Virus record (IMG/VR): IMGVR_UViG_3300037468_000169
Location: 1 to 37,676 of that record
Origin: a virus
Reading direction: 5' to 3' (one strand)
Length of the DNA stretch: 37,676 bases
In this document: positions 9,738 to 11,709 of the stretch, piece after piece
How the letters are laid out: every line of letters begins with the position of its first letter
How positions within the stretch are numbered: the stretch's first letter is position 1
The notes under the pieces: generated by a model
Seen by the model: only the letters and a program-made list of their open reading frames with translations
What the model was told of the DNA's origin: nothing
The model's database searches: none
Position numbers and translations under genes: made by a program

Positions 9738-9814
9738 TGGTCTGTGTGGCAGGATTTGAACCTGCGACCTCCCAGTTCCAAACCCGGCACGCTACCAGAC
9801 TGCGCTACACACAG
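9738..9814 (-). tRNA. tRNA-Pro(UGG)
   Basis: On the minus strand a full cloverleaf reads: acceptor CTGTGTG (9814-9808) pairs with CACACAG (9748-9742), followed by discriminator A and an encoded CCA (9740-9738). The D arm is GCGC/GCGT, the anticodon loop TTTGGAA gives anticodon UGG, and the T arm is GCAGG-TTCAAAT-CCTGC. The anticodon stem CCGGG/CTGGG has one G-G mismatch and one G-U pair, so it may be suboptimal. It would supply proline CCA/CCG decoding. It lies opposite to its neighbours and would need its own promoter. Confidence 0.88.
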
Positions 9815-9993
9815 ATGATTGTGGCGACGCCGCGCAATTCCTACTTGGCGTTTTCGAGAATTGCGCAGCATCATTTTGCGACGGGAGAGGCGGCAACCTC
9901 CCCCACCGCGGAGCTAATCGGCCGTCAGCCAAACGAACTCGGGGCGCAGCATAACACCATTAGGATTTTTTTAAAATATTTTCATCAAGCCTA

Positions 9994-10022
9994 TTGCGGT
10001 AAGCGTTTACCATGCTTATAAT
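9994..10022 (+). promoter_or_regulatory. Promoter with embedded GGTAA-N4-TTACC operator (copy 1)
   Basis: TTGCGG (9994-9999), a 17-base spacer and a perfect TATAAT (10017-10022) form a promoter. The spacer start carries a dyad, GGTAA-GCGT-TTACC (9998-10011). The same arrangement occurs at 16249-16277. The 254 bases between the tRNA and the next gene otherwise hold only this promoter and a GC-rich hairpin near 9881-9900. Confidence 0.75.
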
Positions 10023-10068
10023 GACCCCACACCGAGGCGATGACGCAGCGGGAACTAAGGGGAACAAC

Positions 10069-10218
10069 ATGACAAAAGAACGAGCATTGGCAATTTTTGA
10101 ATATTGGTTTGAGCACGACGGTCACTGGATGTTTGGCACAAGCGACGTGTCAAAATCGAAGGCAATGGCGGCTTGGAAAAGCCACGGAATCGACGGTCTG
10201 CCTAACTGGGCATGGTAA
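10069..10218 (+). CDS. Small hypothetical protein behind operator-promoter 1
   Basis: This is a 49-residue protein starting MTKERALAIFEYW. I chose ATG 10069 because a longer frame would start inside the -35/-10 region, and because AGGGGA lies just upstream. The sequence is aromatic-rich (Trp at several positions) and helical, with a final 'GIDGLPNWAW'. The leader (AAGGGGAA followed by a short spacer and ATG) is very like that of the gene at 16324, behind the second copy of this promoter. No function is recognised. Confidence 0.6.
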   Translation: MTKERALAIFEYWFEHDGHWMFGTSDVSKSKAMAAWKSHGIDGLPNWAW

Positions 10219-10227
10219 CAACCAACC

Positions 10228-10245
10228 AGCGCCAGCAATGGCGCT
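10228..10245 (+). terminator. Hairpin after small gene, weak terminator or attenuator
   Basis: AGCGCC (10228-10233) and GGCGCT (10240-10245) form a perfect 6-bp stem with a 6-base loop, 9 bases after the stop of the 49-residue gene. No T run follows, so it may stabilise or pause the transcript rather than end it. Confidence 0.4.
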
Positions 10246-10255
10246 ATTACTGAGC

Positions 10256-10303
10256 ATAACCGTGGTGGTTACTACCAACACCTGAAATAACCGCAGTGGT
10301 TAT
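10256..10303. promoter_or_regulatory. Tandem palindromes, possible operators
   Basis: ATAACC-N5-GGTTAC (10256-10272) and ATAACC-N5-GGTTAT (10287-10303) have the same half-sites and spacing. Their centres are 31 bases apart, about three helical turns, just upstream of the promoter at 10315. Two phased sites suggest cooperative binding of a regulator. Confidence 0.5.
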
Positions 10304-10314
10304 CAAGATTAGGC

Positions 10315-10342
10315 TTGCAATGGGTGGTGGTTGGTTTATAAT
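10315..10342 (+). promoter_or_regulatory. Promoter of the leader RNA and HNH operon
   Basis: TTGCAA (10315-10320), a 16-base spacer and a perfect TATAAT (10337-10342) form a promoter. Transcription would start at about 10349, at the foot of the structured leader. Confidence 0.65.
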
Positions 10343-10345
10343 TCA

Positions 10346-10455
10346 GGTGCAGCTAGGGTAATACCGAAAGCTCCTTCCCACTCATCTGAGTTGCTGCACC
10401 CGAGTGGGGCGTTGACCATACAACGTAAAAAAAGGCGGGTAAGACGGTGAGTGGG
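10346..10455 (+). ncRNA. Candidate structured leader or C4-like regulatory RNA
   Basis: GGTGCAGC (10346-10353) pairs perfectly with GCTGCACC (10393-10400). Inside that loop CCCACTC (10377-10383) is complementary to GAGTGGG at 10402-10408, and, extended by one base, to TGAGTGGG at 10448-10455. These pairings compete, which is what phage P1/P4-type C4 and CI antisense RNAs use to control the downstream transcript. A further CGTTG/CAACG hairpin lies at 10410-10425. The RNA class is inferred from pairing geometry and position only. No covariance search was possible, and other leader-type controls would fit. Confidence 0.4.
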
Positions 10456-10576
10456 TATTATTTCTAGGCGTTCTGCCGACCAAAAAATCCCATTTTCATA
10501 ATTGTTCGAGTACCAAAGTTTTTTGGCGTGCCTGCGATTACATCAAAAACGCCGTTGCACTACTTGTTGGAGAGAA

Positions 10577-10654
10577 ATGACGCCTGTCTGGGCGGCCATA
10601 CCGGCCGTACCGAAAGGGACTAACCTCACCGGCCAACATTTTATCGCGGTATGA
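10577..10654 (+). CDS. Possible 25-codon leader peptide
   Basis: An ATG with a good GGAGAG ribosome site (10569-10574) opens a 25-residue frame reading MTPVWAAIPAVPKGTNLTGQ and five more residues. It lies within the otherwise untranslated leader between the promoter at 10315 and the HNH gene. I have an impression that similar text occurs in translated enterobacterial prophage leaders (Icd/Ash-type regions), but I cannot verify this. It could be a regulatory leader peptide or chance. Confidence 0.35.
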   Translation: MTPVWAAIPAVPKGTNLTGQHFIAV

Positions 10655-10655
10655 A

Positions 10656-10863
10656 GAGACCCCAGCCGCAACACTGATGACTTTATGTGGGGGAGGGTGC
10701 TTGCAAGAGCGCATTTGGATGGTCAACTGTAGACAACTTGCATAGTTCTACAGCGGCGGTTGCCTACGCGAATGGCTCCGACGGAAATGGCCCTTTACCC
10801 GCCTTTGTGGGTAGGGGGATAGTTTCGGCAGAAAACCAGCAAATCCACCAACGGAAATATGAA
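10656..10863 (+). other. Rest of the long leader before the HNH gene
   Basis: No convincing gene is seen here. A GTG-started frame from 10687 runs in phase into the HNH protein and would add 59 residues of low-complexity, untypical sequence. I treat it as leader but cannot exclude an N-terminal extension. The region completes about 500 bases between promoter and gene with little coding content. Confidence 0.4.
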
Positions 10864-11484
10864 ATGCAAATAACCGAAATCATGTTAAAGCAGGCAAGAA
10901 CAAAAAAAGGAGGATACACGCTAAAACAAGTTGAAATGGCCATAGCGTTGGTAGGGAGCCCATGGATTAAGCCACTCCAAAAAGCAGATGTTGATTGTGA
11001 TTGGTGGAGGGATTTTTACAACGCTCAAACAGATCAGATGCCAGCGCCATTGAAGGTGAAGCCAAAAGCTCAGATTGTAAACCCAATGCCGCCAGATAAC
11101 GGGGATTGGTGCTGGAAGCCAAAGTCTGATGATATTCCAAAGGTCAAAATTGCTGGAAAAAAACCTAAAACAAAAAAGAAAAAGCGCAAAATTATTTGCA
11201 GGAAGGAAAACCAAGAATTTTACGACAGTAAGGAATGGCGAGAGTTGCGCGTTAGGGTTTTGGAAAAGCACGAGTGCAAGTGCATGATGTGTGGAAGATC
11301 ACCAAAAACGCATGGGGTTGTGGTTCATGTGGACCACATAAAACCGCGCTCAAAGCATCCTGAATTATCGCTGGAGTTCACCAACCTTCAGTTATTGTGC
11401 GAAGATTGCAATTTAGGTAAAGGCAATAAATATGAAACCGATTGGCGGCCAAACGGTTCACCAATTGGCAATGCCAACAACTAA
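10864..11484 (+). CDS. HNH endonuclease
   Basis: This is a 206-residue protein. The C-terminal 75 residues form an HNH nuclease: 'YDSKEWRELRVRVLEKHECK', CMMCG (first Cys pair), 'VVVHVDHIKPRS' (metal and catalytic His), 'FTNLQLLCEDCNLGKGN' (Asn and second Cys pair). The middle is very Lys-rich, typical of a DNA-binding linker. The N-terminal 70 residues look like a separate helical domain. Phage HNH proteins act as homing endonucleases or in packaging and replication. Here it lies far from the terminase, behind a long leader, so a homing or mobile role is plausible. The exact start is uncertain. Confidence 0.8.
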   Translation: MQITEIMLKQARTKKGGYTLKQVEMAIALVGSPWIKPLQKADVDCDWWRDFYNAQTDQMPAPLKVKPKAQIVNPMPPDNGDWCWKPKSDDIPKVKIAGKKPKTKKKKRKIICRKENQEFYDSKEWRELRVRVLEKHECKCMMCGRSPKTHGVVVHVDHIKPRSKHPELSLEFTNLQLLCEDCNLGKGNKYETDWRPNGSPIGNANN

Positions 11485-11496
11485 CTAGGGGCAATC

Positions 11497-11709
11497 ATGA
11501 AAATTACAGCAAGTAAAGGCGTGGCAAATATAGAATGTGGGGCGTTCAATTACAGCAACATACGTGGCTTGTACACGAGCGGAGACGGCCACAGCTTTCA
11601 GAATGAAAAGCTACAACAGACGGCAAAAATTGAGGCGTTTTTGTTATGCAAAATAATTGCGGAGTTGGTTTATAGACTGGCCGATATTAACGAGAAAGCC
11701 GAGGGGTAA
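11497..11709 (+). CDS. Hypothetical protein
   Basis: This is a 70-residue soluble protein. It has a short beta-like N-terminus containing 'GVANIECGAFNYSNIRGLYT' and a helical C-terminus. AGGGG lies upstream of ATG 11497, 13 bases after the HNH stop. No motif points to a function. It is the first of four small genes leading to the helicase. Confidence 0.55.
   Translation: MKITASKGVANIECGAFNYSNIRGLYTSGDGHSFQNEKLQQTAKIEAFLLCKIIAELVYRLADINEKAEG

Follow-up and report, generated by a model that had tools for sequence, protein, structure and literature searches.

What fills the roughly 500 bases between a promoter-like sequence and an HNH endonuclease gene in the virus record IMGVR_UViG_3300037468_000169 (37,676 nucleotides, referred to here in their entirety as the window)? 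The original prediction described positions 10346-10863 as a long structured leader with competing pairings, possibly related to the C4 antisense RNAs of phages. Comparison with loci from other phages supports a structured leader RNA behind the promoter, and the region is almost certainly a member of a family of structured phage RNAs, as judged from sequence comparison. The pairings listed in that prediction are real, but they are not the source of the region's interest. The true signal is comparative and lies mostly 3' of the part that had been stressed.

Table 1. Predicted features of the RNA region and its surroundings (window positions)
Feature	Position	Strand	Basis
Sigma-70-like promoter, TTGCAA-16-TATAAT	10315-10342	+	consensus match; recurs in relatives
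5' domain	10346-10560	+	this form in window and L002 only
Conserved RNA core	10560-10691	+	model R1 (window among its 20 building sequences), 53.3 bits, E 1.2e-12
Helix P1, 5' strand TGTTGG, pairs with CCAACA 10633-10638	10565-10570	+	covariation
Motif AGAGAAATG (family AGAGA[A/T/G]ATG)	10571-10579	+	near-invariant columns
Motif CTCACCGG, opposite AGAGAAATG	10625-10632	+	invariant CTCACCG
Helix P1, 3' strand CCAACA	10633-10638	+	covariation
Conserved GAAGAG after P1	10653-10658	+	alignment
Hairpin CTGTAG 10727-10732 / CTACAG 10748-10753	10727-10753	+	compensatory in L002
Segment X copy 1, ACGGAAAT	10781-10788	+	repeat within member
3' hairpin CCCTTTACCC 10791-10800 / GGGTAGGGGG 10809-10818	10791-10818	+	also in L003 and L016, with changes
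Segment X copy 2, ACGGAAAT, 3' border of RNA	10851-10858	+	repeat within member
HNH endonuclease gene, 206 aa, homing-type	10864-11484	+	PF01844 E 3.8e-11; PHROG 144 HNH

The segments CCCACTC (10377-10383), GAGTGGG (10402-10408) and TGAGTGGG (10448-10455) are all present in the 5' domain, which starts with the predicted stem between GGTGCAGC (10346-10353) and GCTGCACC (10393-10400). The GAGTGGG at 10402 had been placed inside this stem but in fact lies outside it, so that CCCACTC/GAGTGGG pairing would form a pseudoknot with the stem. The competing arm, however, is not kept in L002, a contig that is the only close relative: there the counterpart of CCCACTC/GAGTGGG is CCCACAC/GGGTGGG, with one pair broken, and in the alternative arm GAGTGGG has become TAGTGGA, which leaves approximately 4 bp. 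The stem close to the 5' end of L003, another relative, is a different one (GCTGTCGG/CCGACAGC), and many family members carry only a short hairpin, or nothing, before helix P1. A perfect 12-nt complement in the window (10431-10442 and 10795-10806, 352 nt apart) was rejected, as its pairs break in L002, one becoming G-U, without compensation; it is probably due to chance, since it is uncompensated in L002 and competes with the conserved 3' hairpin.

As predicted, the region has little coding content, the only open reading frames of at least 60 amino acids being the HNH frame, where it extends upstream of its gene, and a frame of 62 aa on the minus strand. The folding energy of the 515-nt region is ordinary (z = -0.97, with 17 of 100 shuffled sequences folding equally well), and that of the first 135 nt is not above chance either (z = -1.10). 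Folding energy was therefore rejected as evidence for structure. The opposite strand carries a phage tRNA-Pro (TGG) at a distance of 0.5 kb upstream of the RNA (9738-9814, minus strand).

The conserved core and its distribution

The adjoining HNH protein was used to reach L002, with 87% DNA identity over the stretch that runs from the promoter through the HNH gene, and likewise L016 and L003, which share the motifs AGAGAnAUG, CUCACCG and GAAGA. Patterns built from these motifs identified further phages. Membership was tested by the presence of helix P1 at the exact register with at least six Watson-Crick pairs, which separated members from chance matches almost completely, the exception being L122, a chance match in another register that was left out. 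Early exact patterns had found nothing, or known loci only.

The RNA was found in more than 40 phage loci, often in two copies per genome, and the PAK_P1 copy matches 157 phage records. Pseudomonas phages with the RNA include SYP, PAK_P1 and its relatives, EM, PHB09, UAVern, VCM, PPSC2, KIL1, PN09, NoPa and phiPMW. Searches at E 1e-5 of 299 genomes from a Pseudomonas genus set, and of 369 genomes from the class to which it belongs, detected no copy on bacterial chromosomes; this is weak evidence because the filters were strict and there was no positive control. A pattern scan of bacterial genomes returned 53 loci, none with a full P1.

Homologs with compensatory changes, the check proposed together with the original prediction, were found for P1, the middle domain and the 3' domain. 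For P1, all 7 pairs were changed on both sides among 20 members, and 94% of cells pair when the invariant GAG/CUC pairs are included. The covariation score was 0.635, compared with 0.172 in shuffles and at most 0.118 in slid controls. Model R1, with 96 positions, gave 43 matches in later viral loci with E-values from 1e-22 to 1e-8, some of these being building sequences.

The middle and 3' domains and the duplicated segment X

Beyond P1, it is the larger, Pseudomonas-type group of members that demonstrates the pseudoknot of the middle domain and the details of the 3' domain. The middle domain of this group contains two crossing helices (columns 11-16/50-55 and 38-43/90-95), that is, a pseudoknot, with 13 of 14 pairs changed on both sides and 79 doubly changed cells. 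Its covariation score of 0.860, versus 0.211 in shuffles and at most 0.175 after sliding, is somewhat favored by the fact that the helices were placed by inspection of the same alignment, although the margin is large. In the 3' domain, 13 of 23 pairs were changed on both sides (score 0.401, versus 0.199 in shuffles).

A more divergent group consists of the window, L002, L003 and L016, in which the 5' domain is longer and the 3' hairpin, ending in GGGTAGGGG, is simpler. The window shares P1, the motifs and segment X with the Pseudomonas-type group. Its middle domain is different, so the evidence for the pseudoknot is that of the Pseudomonas-type group and not of the window. In L002, the hairpin CTGTAG/CTACAG reads CTCTAG/CTAGAG, a compensatory change.

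Segment X is a word of 8-13 nt that, in nearly every member, precedes the 3' domain and recurs where the RNA ends, the two copies being identical within a member and different between members. Among 28 non-redundant members, the longest shared word was at least 8 nt in 25, compared with 14% of between-member comparisons, and its mean length was 8.7 within and 6.4 between members (0 of 20000 permutations). In a few members, such as L108 and L165, the best word is not clearly a homologous X, and L016 has no X. In copy B of several phages with the same small zinc-ribbon gene next to it, X is ATCTACGAG, AGCGTCATGAG or GTCCAGCGAGATG, each in both places. The two copies of X thus vary jointly even where locus and downstream gene are the same, which argues that X is not set by an outside target. 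No consistent third site in cis complementary to X was found, and occurrences of X elsewhere in the PAK_P1 genome or the window followed no pattern. The two-fold, jointly changing X is a puzzle without a good explanation from any mechanism that we considered, the cis leader discussed below included.

Promoter, operon position and neighboring nucleases

The strong promoter of the original prediction is present as a consensus match, but chance alone yields a mean of 2.4 such matches per 2 kb. The promoter is credible only because a promoter-like sequence recurs in relatives, all promoters having been called by consensus alone. L002 has TTGGCA..TATACT at the position of the window's promoter. In most members, the promoter-like sequence ends 2-6 nt 5' of the model start; in several it is located 15-35 nt before the model start, and in the HNH group further away. 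No member has a T-run directly 3' of the RNA, the few T-runs being inside the RNA or well beyond it, and no intrinsic terminator was found at the RNA end in the members examined.

Genes after the RNA always run in the same direction as the RNA. The gene next to the RNA encodes a DUF4326 protein, a zinc-ribbon protein that is followed by tRNAs, or a nuclease from one of several families, and the operons headed by the RNA are of the replication, tRNA or homing-nuclease type. Each of the two PAK_P1 copies, at 28.2 kb and 89.5 kb, stands at the head of its own block of rightward genes. In PAK_P4, VCM, PPSC2 and KIL1, the tRNA array is headed by copy B. In the PAK_P4 record, a putative promoter is marked before copy B but no ncRNA is annotated there, although RNA-seq-based ncRNA annotation is present elsewhere, a point against the leader explanation favored below. 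A strong ribosome-binding site and a two-codon minigene (ATG/GTG-AAA-TAA) occur approximately 80-100 nt past the RNA, between the RNA and the zinc-ribbon gene, in PPSC2 (L139), VCM (L138) and L103. In EM, UAVern, KIL1 and PAK_P4 (L135, L137, L210 and L209), a putative RNA ligase gene is found near copy A, upstream and on the opposite strand.

The HNH gene, for which the RNA had been suggested as a partner, is not a constant neighbor. Only in the window, L002, L003 and L016 was it reached together with the RNA through the HNH protein; most members, among them Pakpunavirus and Otagovirus genomes, have no nuclease beside the RNA, and the nucleases that do adjoin it belong to mutually unrelated families (HNH, HNH_3, Endonuclease VII and a CapR/PHROG 681 endonuclease). 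The HNH gene of the window encodes one of these several nucleases at the 3' border. In two phages, L095 (9704-10675, minus strand) and L085 (3279-4268), the nuclease after the RNA has CapR homology domains.

Genes next to the RNA are also gained, lost or exchanged. Immediately past X copy 2, a single gene has been gained or lost between PAK_P1 and PAK_P4. SYP and L094 are collinear and approximately 86% alike, yet the 3' part of the RNA and the next gene have been exchanged together, with one break just past GAAGAGG. This clean cassette exchange relative to L094 is located at 3034-4217 of L085. The window and the L002 contig are collinear at approximately 70-81%, whereas the block of RNA and HNH gene is 87% alike. 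A block more alike than its surroundings, together with cassette exchange and the unrelated nuclease families found after the RNA, fits co-conversion by a nuclease that homes into a conserved RNA gene. From these alignments, the HNH gene is probably a homing hitch-hiker, whose product would use the conserved RNA gene as a landing site and co-convert its 3' part.

Known RNA classes and alternative explanations

Rfam searches at the gathering level with eleven member loci returned tRNA only, and at E 10 no relevant family was found for the window (9900-11500) and three members. A description of the RNA was also absent from the literature searched, which was limited to open-access papers. With neither an Rfam match nor a description in these papers, the RNA class appears to be new, a claim that covers the class and not the mechanism. 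It comprises RNAs of approximately 300-500 nt that are supported by covariation, have a pseudoknot in the main group, and are unannotated in well-studied Pseudomonas phages. They are repeated neighbors of homing nucleases and head operons of the replication and tRNA type.

The class stands beside GOLLD and ROOL, large structured RNAs of unknown function that phages encode, in many cases close to tRNA islands (PMC12286853), with the addition that cultured phages carry members. Proximity to tRNAs is shared by the copies in PAK_P4, VCM, PPSC2 and KIL1. Membership in GOLLD or ROOL was rejected, as their Rfam models gave no match, and the length of 300-500 nt, the AGAGAnAUG/CUCACCG core and the duplicated variable X set the new RNA apart. 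Small RNAs are known from the same wider group of Pseudomonas phages, some near tRNAs (PAK_P3 sRNA1 and sRNA2, PAK_P4 sRNA1; PMC4933390). The PAK_P3 sRNAs were rejected as homologs, as model R1 has no match in PAK_P3, and PAK_P4 sRNA1 (at 91948) is in a different place from copy B. A group I intron was likewise rejected; the Rfam intron models did not match and the RNA starts behind its own promoter.

We favor an operon leader that acts in cis, but consider an RNA acting in trans almost as likely. The preference is tentative and derives from the promoter-like sequence just upstream, the lack of a T-run after the RNA, the common direction of the genes, and the copies heading different gene blocks. 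The RNA would be made from the promoter as the first part of the operon transcript and would fold into P1, closed by AGAGAnAUG/CUCACCG, followed by GAAGAG, a pseudoknotted middle and a 3' domain flanked by X. The put leaders of the temperate phage HK022 offer a model for such an arrangement, as they are structured RNAs of approximately 70 nt behind early promoters, are present in two copies per genome, and head operons. The RNA described here resembles them in its position directly behind a consensus promoter, its frequent occurrence in two copies per genome and its place at an operon head, a likeness of layout and not of compared sequence; it differs in its length of 300-500 nt and its pseudoknot, and no boxA-like or put-like motif was identified in it. 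Like put, the folded leader may alter read-on by RNA polymerase or the processing of the transcript. Antitermination in particular, a trait of put, is a doubtful prediction for the new RNA. Taken as a whole, our best explanation, that of an RNA family member serving as a cis operon leader next to a homing HNH gene, has about an even chance of being correct. Considered alone, a separate structured RNA acting in trans in the manner of GOLLD and ROOL is somewhat unlikely. It would have its own promoter and be ended by processing, the downstream genes being incidental. The GOLLD/ROOL-like genomic habit, the promoter-like sequence of its own and the exchangeable downstream genes argue for such an RNA, and a second promoter-like sequence directly after the RNA in some Pakpunaviruses means that the RNA could be a separate unit; the constant orientation relative to the next genes and the lack of an intrinsic terminator are points against it.

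The remaining explanations fare worse. The RNA shares with the C4 antisense RNAs of P1, P4 and P7 its phage origin and short repeats with alternative pairings (CCCACTC and the two GAGTGGG copies), but the analogy is not supported, as the Rfam C4 model does not match the window even at E 10 and the competing repeats are not conserved; moreover, the family is much longer, has another core and architecture, and mostly lacks the 5' domain, so that an antisense immunity RNA of this kind is extremely improbable. A guide RNA dedicated to the HNH protein, comparable to the HEARO or omega RNAs of IscB and IsrB, is suggested by the position of a structured RNA of approximately 300 nt upstream of an HNH gene in some members and by a Lys-rich stretch before the HNH domain. 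It is nevertheless very improbable, since the HEARO model gave no match, no RuvC-type Pfam family matched the adjoining HNH protein, the nuclease is exchangeable or absent, and the RNA is missing from those HNH relatives among L004-L015 that were tested. Improbable too, to a lesser degree, is a guide in which X copy 1, by pairing with X copy 2 on its template strand, brings a nuclease or recombinase to the 3' border. X matches within but rarely between members, no consistent third site in cis is complementary to it, the gene difference between PAK_P1 and PAK_P4 starts at X copy 2, and nucleases adjoin in some members; against this, the joint variation of both X copies speaks against an outside target, the nucleases belong to ordinary homing families, most members have none adjacent, and 8-13 bp is short. 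If this guide reading is true, the RNA would specify a site of gene exchange, with homing nucleases among the genes gained and exchanged there.
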